A stretch of DNA of 33,974 bases, from NCBI GenBank assembly GCA_016765685.1, contig JAESPR010000104.1:1-33974 (forward strand), given 5' to 3'. Positions 21,605 through 28,996 of this stretch are shown one piece after another. Position 1 is the first letter of the stretch. The number at the start of each line of letters is the position of its first letter. The translations under genes were made by a program, and so were the position numbers. Under the pieces are notes generated by a model that was given only the letters and a program-made list of their open reading frames with translations, was not told where the DNA came from and did no database searches. This stretch comes from Colwellia sp. Its GTDB lineage: Bacteria; Pseudomonadota; Gammaproteobacteria; Enterobacterales; Alteromonadaceae.

Positions 21605-22948
21605 ATGAATATGTTAACTAATCGTCCTCAATTATTATTGGGTATTAATCTTGTTGCGTTAATGGCTGCTGTAACACTGCTAAGCAGCCTTTTTGTAACC
21701 AAAGGCGTGTCAGCAGTTTGGCTATTACTGCTTATTGTCACGGCCTTATTATCAGCCTCTTTATTTTTATTGTTTAAACGTCAAGACAGACAAATAATAC
21801 AAGTGATAAGAGCGCTCGCCAATGGTGATAATACCTTAGGTTTTAGTGCCGAACATCCAATGCGAATACATTTTGATGAAGTTAAACAGCAGATGCAGAC
21901 GGCGAGATTCAATGCTGAGCAACAAGGTGAATTCTTTAAAACACTTTTAGTGCATGTAAATCTTGCTGTTATGGTGTGTGACGCACAAGGCAAAATTATT
22001 GAATATAACCCAGCGGTTGCCAGATTACTTGGTAAAACTGTCAAACACCTTAATGATTTGAGCCATATAGGCACAATGATTTTAACCACGGATAAGAATT
22101 TACATAGCACAGTACAATGGCAACATGGCGAGCAACAAGATACGTTAGCATTGCAAGTGAGTATTGCCGAGATTCAAGGGCAAGAGCGTAAAATTATTAC
22201 CTTGCAATCTATTCATGAGCTGTTGCTTAATAAAGAACAACAAGCGTATAAACGCTTAACTTGCGTACTTACCCATGAAGTTGCTAATACTATTACACCG
22301 TTAGCTTCTCTTGCACAAACCTGTCAGGGACTTATGCCGGATAAATTGTGTTTTAGTGATAAAGAAAACAAACAAGACTTACACTTAGCATTAACAACCC
22401 TAGCTTCACGTACTGAGTATTTAGGCGAATTTATTGCCCGCTTTAGGCAGATTAGCAGCTTACCCCTACCAACATTAATTCCTACTCAAATAACACCTGT
22501 TTTAGAGCGTATAGGTGCCTTTCATCAGCAGCAATTAGCAGCAAATAATATTACTCTTGATATTAAAATTAAAAATCAGCAGTTAGTGATGTTAGATAGT
22601 GGCCAAGTTGAACAAGTACTAATCAATTTAATAAAAAATGCCATTGAATCAGTTGTTTTAGGTAATGAACAGCAAAGTGACCGAGATGAAAAAATTCTTG
22701 AACAAGGATCAATCAGCTTAACTGTAGGACAAAATAGTGCTCAACAACTCTATATTGAGGTGGCAGATAACGGTGCTGGTATCGCAGGACATGTTATCGA
22801 TATGATTTTTGTACCATTTTTTACCACTAAACAGCGGGGTTCTGGCATAGGATTAAGTCTCTCAAGGCAGGTAATGATTAACCATGGTGGCGACTTACTT
22901 TGTCTCAACCGCCCTAAAGGGGCTTGCTTCAGGTGTGTTTTTGGTTAG
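21605..22948 (+). CDS. Membrane sensor histidine kinase partner of the NtrC-type regulator
   Basis: The 447-residue kinase has two closely spaced N-terminal helices (about 10-33 and 37-58) with almost no extracytoplasmic loop, so it senses within the membrane or cytoplasm. A PAS domain (about 112-205; GKIIEYNPAVARLLG) precedes the phosphoacceptor H224 in LTHEVANTITPLASLA. The ATPase domain shows NLIKNAIES, ADNGAGI and GSGIGLSLSRQ. The architecture is NtrY-like. It lies one base after the regulator gene, and the pair likely responds to envelope stress or to a compound exported by the divergent ABC system; that last point is inference. Confidence 0.92.
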   Translation: MNMLTNRPQLLLGINLVALMAAVTLLSSLFVTKGVSAVWLLLLIVTALLSASLFLLFKRQDRQIIQVIRALANGDNTLGFSAEHPMRIHFDEVKQQMQTARFNAEQQGEFFKTLLVHVNLAVMVCDAQGKIIEYNPAVARLLGKTVKHLNDLSHIGTMILTTDKNLHSTVQWQHGEQQDTLALQVSIAEIQGQERKIITLQSIHELLLNKEQQAYKRLTCVLTHEVANTITPLASLAQTCQGLMPDKLCFSDKENKQDLHLALTTLASRTEYLGEFIARFRQISSLPLPTLIPTQITPVLERIGAFHQQQLAANNITLDIKIKNQQLVMLDSGQVEQVLINLIKNAIESVVLGNEQQSDRDEKILEQGSISLTVGQNSAQQLYIEVADNGAGIAGHVIDMIFVPFFTTKQRGSGIGLSLSRQVMINHGGDLLCLNRPKGACFRCVFG

Positions 22949-23851: not shown

Positions 23852-24271
23852 ATGTGGCGTAAATTAACACTAATGTTATTTTTATTAGTATTAGCTCAAA
23901 CAGCTAATGCATTGCCGAGTCCGGAACCCTCAAGTGATGCACCATCGCATCATGTTTATATTCCTCAAATTGAACAACAAAGTGCTTTAAATTTTGATAG
24001 TGATGAATCGGAAGGTTTATTTAATCTACCAAGACTAAATAGGCTTAGCCCTTCACTATTTACTGCTGAAATACAAACAACCCCAAACTACGTATTAGTC
24101 ATAGAGTTTTTCAAAATCAAACTGACTGCTGGGTTGTTTAAAAACTTAGCAAACCCTCCTGTTAATATTCAATGGTTTGAAAAACTAAGTCATAACGCTA
24201 ATTCATCTCGGCTTTCTGGCTGGAAAGACGGCAACTTCTTATATTCATCTCGCACTACTTACCACAGTTAA
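23852..24271 (+). CDS. VemP-like secretion-monitoring arrest peptide upstream of secDF
   Basis: The 139-residue product has a signal peptide (MWRKLTLMLFLLVLAQTANA, cleavage near 20) and a polar mature part. Its end reads R120-LSGWKDGNFLY-131 and stops eight residues later. The Vibrio VemP arrest motif, as I recall it, contains RI-x-GWKETNAMY in the same place: Trp143 lies 13 residues before the stalled Gln156 of a 159-residue protein, while here Trp124 plus 13 is residue 137 of 139. VemP sits directly upstream of secDF2 in Vibrio, as this gene does here. VemP stalls its own ribosome until its export resumes, exposing the secD2 ribosome site. Function here is inferred from motif, signal peptide and synteny. 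GAGGAG lies 11 bases before the start. Confidence 0.78.
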   Translation: MWRKLTLMLFLLVLAQTANALPSPEPSSDAPSHHVYIPQIEQQSALNFDSDESEGLFNLPRLNRLSPSLFTAEIQTTPNYVLVIEFFKIKLTAGLFKNLANPPVNIQWFEKLSHNANSSRLSGWKDGNFLYSSRTTYHS

Positions 24272-24277
24272 TTCATC

Positions 24278-24423
24278 AACTCACAGTACAGTAAAATGAT
24301 AAATCCGCATTTTATACACTGTAAAAATCAACTATTTACCCTTTTACAATACTGATGTTAAACCATCGGTTACTTGCCGTATTTGCTTTATAACAAATGA
24401 GTTGTAGCAATTTATGGTGAGTT
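24278..24423 (+). promoter_or_regulatory. Intercistronic RNA with alternative pairings before secD
   Basis: Seven nt after the arrest-peptide stop, CAACTCAC (24277-24284) can pair with GTGAGTT (24417-24423) near the secD ribosome site, or with TGAGTTG (24398-24404). A local hairpin TAAAATG/CATTTTA (24292-24298 with 24308-24314) lies between. A ribosome stalled at the end of the upstream gene would cover the left arm and could change the fold. The pairings are seen; their role is inferred. Confidence 0.45.
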
Positions 24424-24439
24424 TTTATTTAGAGATTTT

Positions 24440-26272
24440 ATGATGAATTCACGTACAACTAAGCATGTAAGACATGCTAAATGGAAAAATATTGTCATTA
24501 TTTTCATATTACTATTTATGCTCATTAGCGCATTACCAAACTTATATTCCGATAAAGTGAATATACACCTTATAAACAACAACACTCAAAGCGAACAAAT
24601 ATCACCACACGCTATTAATACTCTGTTAGCGAAGCATAAACTTGCTGTGGATGAGATTAAGTCATCTACCAATAGTACTTCTGTAACATTGGCAAATAAA
24701 ACAGACCAACATGTTATTGAAAAAATGCTCACACAAGAGCTAAGGGGTAAATATTCTATTGAAAGCTCAATTGAAAATAATGCTCCGGCTTGGTTAAAGT
24801 CATTAAAGGGGGAATCGATAAAATTAGGTTTAGACCTCAGTGGAGGTGTGTTATTTGTACTAGATGTCGATACCGAACGTGCATTATCTGACAGGCTAAA
24901 GAATATTGCTTTAGACGTTAGTTCTTTAGCGATAGAAAACCGTATTAGGATAAATAAAATATCACAGCCAAATAACCATTCAATTACCATTGATTTTTCT
25001 TCTTCTAAGTCGAATAACAAAGGTCAGCTATTAACGACAATCAAGAAAAACTATCCTGAGTTGACCCATAAACAATTGGATGAAAACCAAGTCACTTTAA
25101 CTTACTCCTCTAAAGAGCAAGTTAAATTTCGTCAAGAAACAATGAAGCAAACACTTAAAACGATGAGAGGGCGAATAGAAGAATTAGGTATCACCGAAGC
25201 GGTTACCCAAAAACAAGGGAAAAATAGAATTCGAATAGAGTTGCCTGGTGTTCATGATCCTGAAGAGGCCAAAAGGATTATTGGCGCTACAGCTTCTCTA
25301 GATTTTTATCAAATGGCTGAACATTCAAAAGCGGTTGGTATTCTACAAATGACTGATGACAATGGTCGAAAATTGAGAATGAATAGTAAGGTAGTCTTCT
25401 CTGGTAGTAGCATTAAAAATGCGCGTGCAGGTCAAGATGAAATGGGTATGCCATTAGTGAAGCTGACATTAGACAGTGTTGGCGGTAAGAAAATGTCTGC
25501 GTTCTCCAAGAAAAATATTGGCAAACCCATGGTGACGGTATTTTCTGAATTTTATCGCAATACCAAGGATGAAATGATTAAGAAAAGCAAAGTGATTAAT
25601 GTTGCCACTATTCAACAGCACTTAGGCTCACAATTTAGTATTACCAATATGTCTAGCTCACAGGCTGCACAAGAACTAGCGTTACTTTTACGTGCAGGTT
25701 CATTAACGGCACCAGTAACGATTGTAAAACAGCGAAGTATTGAAGCGACACTTGGCGTTGACAATATAGATAATGGTATCAAAGCATTGACCATAGGTAT
25801 TTCTTTTACTTTATTATTCATGGCCTTTTGGTATCGCACATTGGGCGTTATCGCTAATGTAGCATTGGCTTTGAATTTAGTTAGTTTACTTGGTTTAATG
25901 TCACTCCTTCCCGGTGCTGTTTTAACACTTCCAGGTATAGCGGGTTTAGTGTTAACGGTAGGTATGGCAGTTGACACAAACGTACTTATTTTTGAACGGA
26001 TAAAAGAAGAATTAAAGCGTGGTCGTCAGGTGCTTTCTGCGATTGAAAATGGTTATAAAAGCGCGTTTTCAACTATTCTTGATGCCAATATTACCACGAT
26101 GATCACAGGGATAATTTTATACTCCATCGGTTACGGCCCCGTAAAGGGTTTTGCCATCATTCTATGTTTAGGGATATTGACCAGTATGTTTACTGGGGTA
26201 TTCGTTTCAAAAGCATTAACCAATATTGTAATTCGTGAAAACAAGTCTCAGCTACTTGGAGTTAAATTATGA
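24440..26272 (+). CDS. secD: Protein translocase subunit SecD (second, SecDF2-type copy)
   Basis: SecD with SecF uses the ion gradient to pull exported proteins from the Sec channel. The 610-residue protein has an N-terminal helix (about 17-35), the conserved KLGLDLSGGVLFVLDVD block (near 128-143; the housekeeping copy usually has LRGG), the periplasmic P1 domain with GRIEELG and RIRIELPGV, and a six-helix RND-type region. The ion-relay motif VGMAVDTNVLIFERI is intact. The start could be ATG 24440 or 24443; AGAGA is the only, weak, ribosome site. It lacks the usual yajC/tgt neighbours and follows a VemP-like gene, so I take it for a regulated second copy. It overlaps secF by 4 bp. Confidence 0.95.
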   Translation: MMNSRTTKHVRHAKWKNIVIIFILLFMLISALPNLYSDKVNIHLINNNTQSEQISPHAINTLLAKHKLAVDEIKSSTNSTSVTLANKTDQHVIEKMLTQELRGKYSIESSIENNAPAWLKSLKGESIKLGLDLSGGVLFVLDVDTERALSDRLKNIALDVSSLAIENRIRINKISQPNNHSITIDFSSSKSNNKGQLLTTIKKNYPELTHKQLDENQVTLTYSSKEQVKFRQETMKQTLKTMRGRIEELGITEAVTQKQGKNRIRIELPGVHDPEEAKRIIGATASLDFYQMAEHSKAVGILQMTDDNGRKLRMNSKVVFSGSSIKNARAGQDEMGMPLVKLTLDSVGGKKMSAFSKKNIGKPMVTVFSEFYRNTKDEMIKKSKVINVATIQQHLGSQFSITNMSSSQAAQELALLLRAGSLTAPVTIVKQRSIEATLGVDNIDNGIKALTIGISFTLLFMAFWYRTLGVIANVALALNLVSLLGLMSLLPGAVLTLPGIAGLVLTVGMAVDTNVLIFERIKEELKRGRQVLSAIENGYKSAFSTILDANITTMITGIILYSIGYGPVKGFAIILCLGILTSMFTGVFVSKALTNIVIRENKSQLLGVKL

Positions 26273-27189
26273 ACAATTCCCTATTAAAACAAACTGAAAC
26301 TTTAAGCAAGTTTCGTGTAGTCAGCTTCTATTGTGCCGCAGTATTTGTTTTATTTTCTTTACTCGGTTTATTTAATAATGGGCTTAATCTTGGTTTAGAT
26401 TTTACGGGTGGATACCTAACAGAGTTCTCAACTGAACAATCGATAACCCAGAACAAAATGCAAGGGTTATTGACGTCATATTTACCTGATACATTTCAAT
26501 TGTCTTCTGCTGAAAATGGAACGCACTGGAGCGTACAGCAAGCCGATAATAATAGTAGCTTGAAAGGAAAAACATGGTTAACCGAATTTTCCGAGCAAAG
26601 CGGATTAACAATCACACCACAAGATGCTATTTATATCGGTAGCCAAGTAGGTGAAGAGTTAATTAATCAAGGAGGGTTAGCGTTATTAACTTCAGTGATA
26701 GTGATATTGCTTTATTTATCGTTAAGGTTCGAATGGCGCTTGGCGGCAGGTTCTGTCATTGCGCTTTTTCATGATGTGATTATCGTGCTTGGCATATTCG
26801 CATGGTTTGAAATTTCATTTGATTTAACCATCCTCGCAAGTTTGCTCGCCATCATCGGTTATTCACTAAATGATTCAATAATCGTCGGTGACAAGATAAG
26901 AGAAATAATGAAAAGAAATAATGAAACCGATATAGATTCCATTATAAATCTCGCCATAAAATCAACCATCGTTCGCACCTTGATAACTTCAGGGACAACG
27001 CTTGCTACGATATTAGCAATATGGTTTTTTGCAGGGGAATCACTAGCTGGTTTTTCTATTGCGCTCTTCACGGGGATTTTAGTCGGTACGTTTTCATCTA
27101 TTGCAATTTCGGCAACTGTGCCACAATTATTTGGTTTAAAGGCAGATTATTATCAAAGAAAAGAGGAAGATATTTGTCAATTACCCTGA
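26269..27189 (+). CDS. secF: Protein translocase subunit SecF (second copy)
   Basis: The 306-residue SecF partner has an N-terminal helix (about 18-38), the LGLDFTGGYLTEF block, a small periplasmic domain and five further helices. The conserved LLAIIGYSLNDSIIVGDKIRE segment, carrying the functional Asp, is intact. Its ATG overlaps the secD stop (ATGA), a translational-coupling arrangement typical of secDF. The C-terminus is short and polar. Confidence 0.95.
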   Translation: MNNSLLKQTETLSKFRVVSFYCAAVFVLFSLLGLFNNGLNLGLDFTGGYLTEFSTEQSITQNKMQGLLTSYLPDTFQLSSAENGTHWSVQQADNNSSLKGKTWLTEFSEQSGLTITPQDAIYIGSQVGEELINQGGLALLTSVIVILLYLSLRFEWRLAAGSVIALFHDVIIVLGIFAWFEISFDLTILASLLAIIGYSLNDSIIVGDKIREIMKRNNETDIDSIINLAIKSTIVRTLITSGTTLATILAIWFFAGESLAGFSIALFTGILVGTFSSIAISATVPQLFGLKADYYQRKEEDICQLP

Positions 27190-27570
27190 TTGAATTTTAA
27201 ATATTACTCCTGTTAGTTTATAAGGTATCTATTTATCGATGGATACCTTAACTGTCTTGTCTTAACCGATAAGTCATGCCAATACAAATACGTGAACGAC
27301 CGCTATGGTGTGTGAGTATCAAGATGAAGGTAGCTCAACGTCTAATGAACACTAAAAACAGCTCGAAAATCTATTGATGTTAACGTCGGCTATCGTATCA
27401 AAGTGATCGTTAGGATGGGTGATTTTGGTTCGTGAATTAGGTCGGCTTTGTGGTATTAGTGATCATACAGGAAGTTTATTTCAAAGATTAGGAACAATCA
27501 CAAAACGTAACTAATATGTTAAATTTTCTCATTACTTGTGACGATCCGCACATTAACCACATCTAATAGA
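27190..27570. other. Gene-free stretch after secF, with possible degraded coding sequence
   Basis: An inverted repeat TAAGGTATC (27221-27229) / GATACCTTA (27242-27250) could end secDF transcription, although no T-run follows. Between about 27275 and 27530, short reading-frame pieces look coding-like: YKYVNDRYG, VAQRLMNTKNSS and VIVRMGDFG, in different frames and broken by stops. They faintly resemble a GGDEF domain in the right order. This is a suggestion only. Confidence 0.3.
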
Positions 27571-27790: not shown

Positions 27791-28996
27791 TTAAAATAAA
27801 TCTAAGCCTGGGATAGCCGCTTCGTTTGGATGTAAACAATGATGCAAATAAATGGCAAGACCAGCGTCACCTGTCCACAAGGTATGCCTGCCTTGACCGT
27901 AACGTAAACGATCTTTCTGGCATTGCTCAATGGCGTGAATTGCAAACTTCCTTGCTCTTTCAAGCCAAATTAAATCCCCCCACCTTTTATATAGATATAA
28001 AAAAGCATAACCGTTACCCGAAGTACCATGACAAATATTAGCGCCTTTTACTAGCGGTCCTGCTTGCCACACTAATTCACCCGTTTTTTCTAACAAATTA
28101 TCAAGTAGTTTAGAGTGGGGTGAATTGTTTTTAGGGGTTCTTGCCATTGCCGTAACAATGCCTGCAGCGCCATGACACCACTGTACAAGTAGTTTATCAA
28201 TGTTGGGTTTGGTGCATAAAGTCCAATTAATTAAACCGTTTTCTCTTTTCGCAGATATATTTAGTGTCGCAATAGTGCGTTCTATAATCGCCTCAATGCA
28301 ACTATCTGATAATAAATCTGCACCTTGTAAAAGAATATTAGCGTTACCCGTTATACCGTGGCAGGCACCGTAATAATGACGTTTTAGCCCAAATACCTGA
28401 CTTTGCCAAAGCCATTCACCTGTTTCAGTATCTTGTTGCCAATTATCCATTAACGATCTTGCGCCTTTAACAAACATATTTTTCCAGCAAATGTTACCTG
28501 TTTTACGGTATAGCGCTAAAGCCACATGCATCATGCCACTTTGGCCGGACGTTATTTCATAAAGAGGAAGATCTATTGTTTCTTCCATGCACTTTAAAAG
28601 GTGCTCTAAGACATATTGATTATCAGGTTCAGCTAAAATTAGGGGCATCAAAATACCAATTTCACCTATTTGCAATCCCGGCTCTACTGATACGTCAGGA
28701 GACTTTAAGAATGACGAGTGAACGGTGGCAAGTAAATGTGATAAGTCGTTTGTTTTATAGCCGTAATATTTTAAAATTTGTAGTGCATGTATAGTACCAG
28801 CCGCACCCGCATAGGCAGACCATTTAGGCCCAATCCTAGAATAGCTTTCAGCATCAAGAGGATGTGTCGGCCAGCAAGCGTTAGGTAATAGTGATTGTTC
28901 AACATCATCAATAATCGATGTTATTGCTTTTTGAACAATAATCTTGTTCCAAGATGTTGTGGTCAGTAATTCATGACGCTTTCTATCAAATAACAT
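27791..28996 (-). CDS. Orphan LanC-like lanthionine cyclase-family protein
   Basis: The 401-residue protein is an alpha/alpha toroid with repeated GxxG turns (GAAGTIHAL, GEIGIL, GQSGMMH, GITGN, GAAGI, GTSGNG, GDAGLA), the LanC fold. The zinc ligands of LanC are present: C274 in WCHG and C322-H323 in ICHG. A further C212-H213-G matches the position of the catalytic His of NisC. The catalytic Asp region reads YEITSGQSG, so Glu seems to replace Asp. LanC enzymes close thioether rings in lanthipeptides, but no dehydratase (LanB/LanM) or precursor-like short ORF was seen nearby. It may act as a stand-alone LanC-like protein on another Cys substrate. Ribosome site AGGGG lies unusually far (13 bases) from the ATG. 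Confidence 0.88.
   Translation of the reverse strand: MLFDRKRHELLTTTSWNKIIVQKAITSIIDDVEQSLLPNACWPTHPLDAESYSRIGPKWSAYAGAAGTIHALQILKYYGYKTNDLSHLLATVHSSFLKSPDVSVEPGLQIGEIGILMPLILAEPDNQYVLEHLLKCMEETIDLPLYEITSGQSGMMHVALALYRKTGNICWKNMFVKGARSLMDNWQQDTETGEWLWQSQVFGLKRHYYGACHGITGNANILLQGADLLSDSCIEAIIERTIATLNISAKRENGLINWTLCTKPNIDKLLVQWCHGAAGIVTAMARTPKNNSPHSKLLDNLLEKTGELVWQAGPLVKGANICHGTSGNGYAFLYLYKRWGDLIWLERARKFAIHAIEQCQKDRLRYGQGRHTLWTGDAGLAIYLHHCLHPNEAAIPGLDLF

Follow-up and report, generated by a model that had tools for sequence, protein, structure and literature searches.

A 139-codon upstream open reading frame (uORF) that directly precedes secD2 and secF2 in Colwellia sp. (Bacteria; Pseudomonadota; Gammaproteobacteria; Enterobacterales; Alteromonadaceae) very probably encodes a secretion monitor of the VemP class, which would control the two genes behind it. 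The locus lies on contig JAESPR010000104.1 of assembly GCA_016765685.1, in a stretch of 33,974 nucleotides (positions 1 to 33,974 of the forward strand) referred to below as the window. This reading is favoured because the distance from the key Trp to the stop codon, purifying selection on the C-terminus, a SecD2 clade shared with Vibrio and a helix close to the stop codon all fit; we infer arrest and its release from the sequence. The features of the locus are the following.

23852..24271, + strand: VemP-like uORF, 139 aa plus stop, ATG start.
23852..23911, + strand: codons 1-20, assigned by eye as a signal peptide (MWRKLTLMLFLLVLAQTANA).
24020..24034, + strand: F57-N-L-P-R61, candidate match to the hydrophobic segment and Arg-85 element of VemP (F-N-T-Q-R85).
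24209..24262, + strand: putative arrest block R120-LSGWKDGNFLYSSRTT-Y137, defined by sequence conservation.
24260..24265, + strand: predicted stall, with the Tyr137 codon in the P site and the His138 codon in the A site.
24270..24278, + strand: 5' arm of the putative anti-start helix, AATTCATCA, its first base being the second of the uORF stop codon.
24431..24435, + strand: AGAGA, weak Shine-Dalgarno (SD) candidate of secD, from the sequence.
24440..26272, + strand: secD2, 766.8 bits with NF009545 (cut-off 728).
24441..24449, + strand: 3' arm, TGATGAATT, which covers the start codons of secD, from complementarity.
26269..27189, + strand: secF2, 257 bits with TIGR00966 (cut-off 160).
27221..27250, + strand: 13-bp hairpin 3' of secF2, possible operon end, a consensus match only.

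The uORF product ends with R120-L-S-G-W124-K-D-G-N-F-L-Y131-S-S-R-T-T-Y137-H-S-stop, the Trp being residue 124 of 139. Read by eye, its N-terminus, MWRKLTLMLFLLVLAQTANA, resembles a cleavable signal peptide, with a basic n-region, a hydrophobic core and ANA at residues 18-20, and in an alignment of 10 uORFs A15, N19 and A20 of this region were at least 90% conserved. An earlier, sequence-only reading had described a secreted-looking ORF of 139 residues directly before secD-secF, a second SecDF, and a weak ribosome site for secD. All three descriptions hold: the first agrees with the ORF coordinates and the family-model scores, the genome (an assembly 77% complete) encodes another SecD, 40% identical, on contig C24, so that the window copy is its second SecD, and AGAGA at 24431-24435 is indeed a weak site. 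Pfam and NCBIfam scans of the window uORF gave no match, as they did for VemP itself, and a PDB search with the whole protein gave none either. The PDB matches obtained with the last 25 residues were unrelated lectins and were discarded.

For comparison with VemP, the uORF of locus L060 was used, which has 159 residues with the Trp at 143 and matches the nascent chain of PDB 5NWY (E 3.4e-70). It bears out the VemP geometry that the sequence-only reading had given (Trp143 of 159, against Trp124 of 139 in the window). Families are designated here by f numbers, f1 being the family of the window, f7 Kangiellaceae, f21 the one that holds VemP and f18 an Enterobacteriaceae-type family. Pairwise BLASTP of the window uORF against VemP returned the C-terminal block at 24.3 bits, plus a weak match of the signal region. 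A profile of the window family (10 sequences) matched a set of seven VemP-type sequences, made up of four Vibrio VALN-type VemPs, L117 (Vibrionaceae, with another tail), one f6 and one f2 sequence, at 98.7% (E 2.1e-16, 78 columns). The four Vibrio VALN-type VemPs alone were matched at 93.0% (E 3.5e-7), over 28 C-terminal columns; the C-terminus is close to the core of the VemP motif, as had been proposed. Because this last match is limited to C-terminal columns, common descent with VemP beyond the block would rest on the intermediate families (f6, f2, L117), on synteny and on SecD.

A tree of 108 SecD sequences, with a single SecD1 (the genome's own copy) as its root, placed the window SecD and Vibrio SecD2 in one clade of 101 with support 0.98, and the window SecD within a subclade of 55 with support 1.0. 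The clade of 101 leaves out f15 and f25, and takes in the motif-less loci L091, L093 and L284-L288.

The Vibrio VemP/secD2-secF2 system (V. alginolyticus, PDB 5NWY) and the window have in common a secreted or, in the window, secreted-looking uORF directly before a second secDF, a block R-[IL]-S-G-W-K-[ED]-x-N-x-[ML]-Y followed at a like distance by the stop (15 residues from Trp to end in the window, 16 in VemP), an Arg about 60 residues before the Trp, a sequestration of the start site, predicted in the window, and a SecD2 of the same clade. They differ in the tail, which is VALNSQFSA in VemP and SSRTTYHS in the window, so that the residues proximal to the peptidyl transferase centre (PTC) change; in the predicted P-site residue, Tyr in the window and Gln in VemP; and in length, the window uORF being shorter.

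In the cis element of VemP, as described in passages of PMC11470409 and PMC7793623, three residues separate a short hydrophobic segment (LALF) from Arg85. In the window family, L-F-N-L-P-R61 was kept in most of 17 sequences and resembles the LFN-T-Q-R85 of VemP; Arg61, at least 90% conserved, stands 63 residues before the Trp, and VemP Arg85 stands 58 before its own. A profile of uORFs found before dedA genes (see below) puts its own invariant R73 against the LPR (R61) of the window family. As MAFFT does not superpose R61 and R85 in one column, the R61 segment is taken as a candidate, a resemblance to the Arg85 element.

Conservation of the uORF was followed in a sample of 196 genomes of the window's family, in which SecD2 was called by the NF009545 cut-off and loci were counted without dereplication. 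The cut-off was exceeded in 36 genomes, and at all 36 loci, window included, the upstream ORF ends with [RK]xxGW[KQ][DE]xNxxY, with K for R in three and Q for K in one. The sequence-only reading had made its case depend on conservation of the R..GWK..N..Y block before secDF in relatives, and this conservation was found. Locus L126, the SecD of which is just under the cut-off, likewise has the motif, as have three of eight more below-cut-off loci that were read (one with Y for G); G077 (726.6 bits) and many lower-scoring matches lay outside this reading. At L284-L288, before SecD-like genes of the same family, the uORF ends with DNCQPANLTYR or NDCQPANLTYR and a short tail; these ends keep N..Y without W-K and possibly are a further variant of the core. 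At the genus level the distribution is patchy, a strong match (E of some 1e-23 or lower) being present in 9 of 39 genomes, window included. Colwellia piezophila (NZ_KB905166.1), of the same genus, has the same uORF end, in keeping with the Colwelliaceae lineage that the sequence-only reading had thought likely.

Selection along the uORF was estimated from 17 sequences, window included; L120 was left out, as its start did not suit the script. The ratio pN/pS was 0.76 in the signal region, 2.0 over residues 21-55, 0.40 over 56-105, 0.38 over 106-117, and 0.16 over the last 22 codons (residues 118-139), where pS was 0.42. Since this last ratio is low despite abundant synonymous change, the alignment indicates that C-terminal conservation acts on the peptide, and not on the DNA. 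It could be that the uORF product is a secreted protein with a function of its own, which shares a transcript with secDF fortuitously or as its client, and conserved mid-protein residues (P60, F70, Q75, E85 and W108 in the alignment of 10 uORFs) would fit such a role. However, residues 21-55 are essentially unconstrained, the length of the uORF ranges from 137 to 227 residues in the family, and the strongest conservation is at the very C-terminus, the Trp lying 15 residues from the end in 37/37 family loci. We therefore consider an independent function very improbable, and retain the VemP-class monitor.

Order-wide, 98 of 394 genomes were above the NF009545 cut-off, and loci were also read from ten further families (f2, f6, f7, f9, f11, f12, f15, f16, f21 and f25). 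A loosened motif, Rxx[GAS]WKxxNxx[YF], was present at every locus read of f2, f6, f7, f11, f12, f16 and f21, and at three of the five loci of f9 (one with C before W). The f6 uORF ends look like those of named Shewanella loci, by eye only. At the nucleotide level, a pattern of R, two free codons, G or A, W, K, D or E, one free codon, N, two more free codons and Y gave 72 matches in 70 of the 394 genomes, and none in the reversed control. At the class level, 2 of 274 genomes matched, both of the window's own family, with 0 of 271 outside the order. In a scan of named genomes at least 118 stretches matched, 80 of which were made into loci. Among the matches listed, the frame ends 17-31 residues from the Arg (Arg counted) in 68 of the 80, and at 45 of these 68 a SecD motif lies within 2.6 kb downstream; 12 of the 80 were put aside as apparent chance matches, in which a stop either interrupts the motif or lies a long way from it.

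The stall in VemP is placed at Gln156 in the relevant passage of PMC5449182. This residue is Trp143+13, and Tyr137 holds the same Trp+13 position in the window. In the window family Tyr is present at Trp+13 in 39/40 loci and Thr at Trp+12 in 37/40, and at Trp+14 the 40 loci have mostly His (26) or Leu (11). Tyr at Trp+13 was also found in 4/5 uORFs of f7, 3/3 of f11 and 11/12 of the dedA-linked uORFs of f18, the odd ones of f7 and f18 having Phe; in f2, f6, f9, f12, f16 and f21 the Trp+12/+13 positions differ from the Thr-Tyr type. In the alignment of ten, R120, G123, W124, K125, N128, Y131, T136 and Y137 are invariant. Judged from these alignments, the tail of the window uORF is a conserved Thr-Tyr subtype, with Tyr in place of the VemP P-site Gln-156. 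The proposal of a divergent arrest sequence stands insofar as SSRTTYHS differs from VemP, but the divergence is that of a subtype and not an ad hoc one. Because four of the five f7 uORFs end right after Trp+14, we infer that a ribosome stalled on the window uORF would hold Tyr137 in its P site.

The bases 24270-24278 (AATTCATCA), just at the uORF stop, are perfectly complementary over nine bases to 24441-24449 (TGATGAATT). Among 20,000 random placements of the same geometry in the window, 65 matched this helix or were better. The arms change together in relatives: AATTCATTA with TAATGAATT (L053), AAATTCATTA with TAATGAATTT (L052), GTTCATC with GATGAAC (L054), TCGTTCTC with GAGAACGA over the SD (L028), and TTTTCCTTATT with AGTAAGGAAAA (L281). 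Scoring of the helix was tried at 109 loci and obtained at 85, 59 of them non-redundant; the 24 loci left out, for which the script found no start or no motif, include seven of f15 and f25. Over the 59 loci, the own arms had a mean of -9.85 kcal/mol, against a mean of -7.87 kcal/mol (sd 0.33) when arms were permuted, and the lowest of 20,000 permutations reached -9.29. Some secD starts were probably called wrongly in this scoring. When the window RNA was folded without the bases up to 24276, approximately as far as a ribosome halted at codon 137 would reach, the chance of being unpaired went from 0-0.18 to 0.38-0.64 for five of the six bases that make up the two start codons, and fell from 0.98 to 0.70 for the first one. 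Folding the intergenic region alone was not decisive, other helices pairing much of it. These computations suggest that the secD2 start is sequestered by an mRNA structure, which a stalled ribosome would open.

Rather than by a stalled ribosome, the helix could be opened by translation of the uORF as such or by temperature, that is by ordinary translational coupling or RNA thermosensing, with a C-terminal peptide that causes no stalling. As the 5' arm lies next to the uORF stop codon, the helix would also be disturbed by a ribosome that terminates there, and the tail residues L153/N154 of VemP are not conserved in the window uORF. Nevertheless, the low pN/pS of the last codons with its abundant synonymous change points to selection on the peptide, and the amino-acid block is kept where the sequence of the helix is entirely different, in the Paraglaciecola-type L028 and the Pseudoalteromonas-type L281. 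Coupling or thermosensing without arrest is thus, in our opinion, unlikely, and stalling by a VemP-class peptide is preferred.

Several observations weigh against this preference. The published VemP motif, HRIxGWKETNAMYVxLNxx, has 15 specified positions, and the window is identical at six, similar at three (L for I, D for E, L for M) and different at six. Both Leu153, which a passage of PMC5449182 gives as required in VemP, and Asn154 are replaced in the window, so that VemP data by themselves do not allow arrest to be assumed. No direct profile match to the Vibrio VALN-type VemPs was found outside the C-terminal block, and in the alignment of 17, read by eye, the (hydrophilic)xP element has no conserved counterpart some 18 residues before Arg61, two further differences from VemP. 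In the window's family, five below-cut-off SecD loci have a related uORF without W-K, and no such uORF was seen before SecD in f15 (0/3 read) or f25 (0/4 read, one below cut-off). Concerning the helix, only 14 of the 59 loci singly beat 95% of shuffles, 14/59 rank among the top 10% of partner swaps, and 2/59 beat every swap. Finally, folding the window RNA without the bases up to 24270 changed nothing, and masking up to 24276 frees the secD start codon only partly.

The mechanism that we propose for the window would be as follows. If the translocon, probably together with the primary SecDF, does not pull the nascent chain, residues 120-137 would lodge in the exit tunnel and halt elongation while Tyr137 occupies the P site. 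In this state the ribosome would cover the bases just past the uORF stop, leaving the secD2 start region free, and more SecD2 and SecF2 would be made. Once export is restored, the pull on the chain would end the arrest.

Similar uORFs were found before genes other than secD. Among the matches listed, 23 frame-ending loci had no SecD motif within 2.6 kb: 12 precede dedA, two a chaA-like gene, one (L193) a dedA-like gene 451 bases on, one an ABC-type permease gene and one rodA, while five end too soon and one (L134) shows a SecD start. A secreted-looking uORF is present 84-330 bases before a DedA-family gene in Serratia, Yersinia, Hafnia, Edwardsiella, Enterobacillus and Edaphovirga, at loci that include L133, L135, L146, L152, L171, L174, L175, L200 and L279, and an mzrA-like gene comes next where the sequence is long enough. 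An example of the end of such a uORF is RLGGWKESNMLYRGTLTYHS, and the tails are mostly TYH. In Serratia L133, the DedA gene has a VTT domain (76.4 bits) and is under the cut-off of the NCBIfam DedA model, with mzrA directly after it (149 bits, cut-off 89); outside L133 the DedA assignment was made by eye or by sequence pattern. The E. coli homolog of this DedA gene, 72% identical, is annotated yqjA. A pattern search of f18 gave matches in 12 of 197 genomes and 11 of 154 genera, and none in the reversed control. The dedA gene was seen at 11 of the 12 loci, seven by pattern and four by eye, L296 not being resolved by the script.

The profile of dedA-type uORFs (7 sequences) matched that of the window family at 97.8% (E 1e-12), over 81 columns down to the last residue, and the Vibrio VALN-type VemPs at 91.2%, over 17 columns only. 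Their C-terminus is under purifying selection, with pN/pS 0.24 versus 2.2 in mid-protein (10 sequences). In the Serratia loci CCGGTGT follows the uORF stop and ACACCGG is found at the dedA start. Taken over 12 loci, not dereplicated and without L146 (start not found), the helix reached p 0.05 singly at two and was not significant at ten, and partner permutation gave 0.013. The NCBIfam scan of the Serratia-type uORF gave no match. In E. coli (one strain read) the motif is not kept before yqjA; an annotated 27-codon hypothetical ORF without the motif, which contains YQDSNNI, lies just before the gene (L290:1380-1463). As a separate observation, MzrA (L133:5127-5498) matches the SecD-TM1/N-terminal domain PF13721 at 73.8 bits, and NF009545 weakly, hinting that mzrA and secD share ancestry.

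A VemP-type uORF also precedes a chaA-like antiporter gene in Photobacterium frigidiphilum (L155), Vibrio proteolyticus (L201) and an f21 genome (L277). The two chaA-like genes scanned reached 324-325 bits (cut-off 505), and the third was recognized by eye; a dedA-like gene, also seen by eye, comes after the chaA-like gene in L155 and L277. No stop-proximal helix was found at these three loci, nor at L193. In two f16 genomes (L275, L276) a VemP-type uORF lies 71-83 bases before a secreted protein. The first 120 residues of the L275 protein marginally match an S41-peptidase N-terminal model (27.3 bits, cut-off 26.6), and L276 was assigned by resemblance; at these two loci the bases after the stop have a 13-bp and a 10-bp complement in the SD region (p 0.004 and 0.012). 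In addition, Photobacterium L172 and L149 have an ORF of some 155 aa that carries a hydrophobic stretch late in its sequence and, close to its end, RLGGWKEANIQY; in L172 a rodA gene follows, whereas the DNA of L149 ends too soon. In Pseudohongiella L148, an ORF ending with RLSGWKDGNFQYRSLALAHG lies 97 bases before an ABC-type permease gene.

The Thr-Tyr tail is found in the secD2F2 leaders of the window's family, of f7 (Kangiellaceae) and of f11, and in the yqjA leaders (with mzrA), while the VemP-type leaders before chaA-like (Vibrionaceae) and S41-peptidase-like (f16) genes have other tails. On balance, we think it probable that a VemP-type cassette is spread over the order, limited neither to Vibrio nor to SecDF, and that its targets have changed, the Thr-Tyr(-His) tail with Tyr in the P site being common to the secD2F2 and yqjA leaders. 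Through it, cells would link the force of translocation, or the ion-motive force, to cation transport, the recycling of undecaprenyl phosphate and the upkeep of the envelope.

The reuse of the cassette bears on what an arrest in the window would sense. The arrest may be real and yet respond to general translocation strength or ion-motive force, rather than act as a sodium-dependent switch from one SecDF pair to the other, SecDF1 being sodium-driven and SecDF2 proton-driven in the VemP family. The dedA/yqjA, chaA-like and S41-peptidase-like genes, which have related cassettes before them, are not known to act directly in Sec translocation; on the other hand, the target in the window's lineage is still SecDF. 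A general input is, for us, a tentative though quite conceivable alternative to the sodium switch.

Other known systems resemble the window in part. The uORF fits the VemP-like cluster of PMC10987492, as described in its passages on VemP, by its motif (R120..W124K125..N128..Y131 for RxxxWKxxNxxY), by its place before secDF and, by eye, by its localization signal. In passages of the same paper, uDF_RQH_Enterobacterales of Alteromonas naphthalenivorans is likewise an arrest peptide that induces secDF2 through the opening of an SD-sequestering stem-loop, but its motif is RGPP and not GWK..N..Y. SecM-secA and MifM-yidC2 share with the window a secreted or inserted monitor, a C-terminal arrest and a derepressed downstream gene, whereas their arrest sequences and targets are unrelated.

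In the surroundings of the operon, a PAS/HATPase sensor histidine kinase gene lies upstream (21605-22948, + strand), and a gene for a LanC-like protein (PF05147, 123 bits) adjoins it (27791-28996, - strand). Promoter-like matches in the window were no commoner than in shuffled sequences (16 found, 19.5 expected).

Part of this distribution may already be in print. The 2024 survey of Fujiwara et al. (PMC10987492) screened uORFs of secA, secDF and yidC and, according to its passages on the subject, found 339 VemP-like sequences with the loose motif RxxxWKxxNxxY; its VemP passages name Vibrio only, and a passage of a 2024 JBC paper calls the operon specific to Vibrio species. The claim of a VemP-class peptide outside Vibrio is largely supported for the window's family, with the motif at 36/36 loci, but because of those 339 sequences it may not be new, the distribution being probably known in part. 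Literature searches for VemP with Colwellia or Alteromonadaceae gave nothing relevant (the sole Colwellia match was an author surname), and those with Shewanella gave unrelated papers, judged from titles and abstract starts. None of the papers searched joins "arrest peptide" and "DedA", and broader searches on yqjA, mzrA and chaA showed nothing on such cassettes by title or abstract start among the matches listed. Within the reach of these searches, three things seem new: the Thr-Tyr subtype, the start-site helix with its co-varying arms and, most of all, the use of the cassette ahead of dedA/yqjA and other genes.

The window uORF would be a natural variant of VemP, in which the mid-tunnel block R..GWK..N..Y is kept and the residues beside the PTC are replaced. 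The Thr-Tyr variant lets one ask how VemP silences the PTC, with a concrete P-site prediction, Tyr137, and a putative secD2 switch placed on defined bases. That the cassette recurs before yqjA suggests that control by force-sensing arrest extends to envelope genes outside the Sec machinery, and the genera concerned are tractable in the laboratory.

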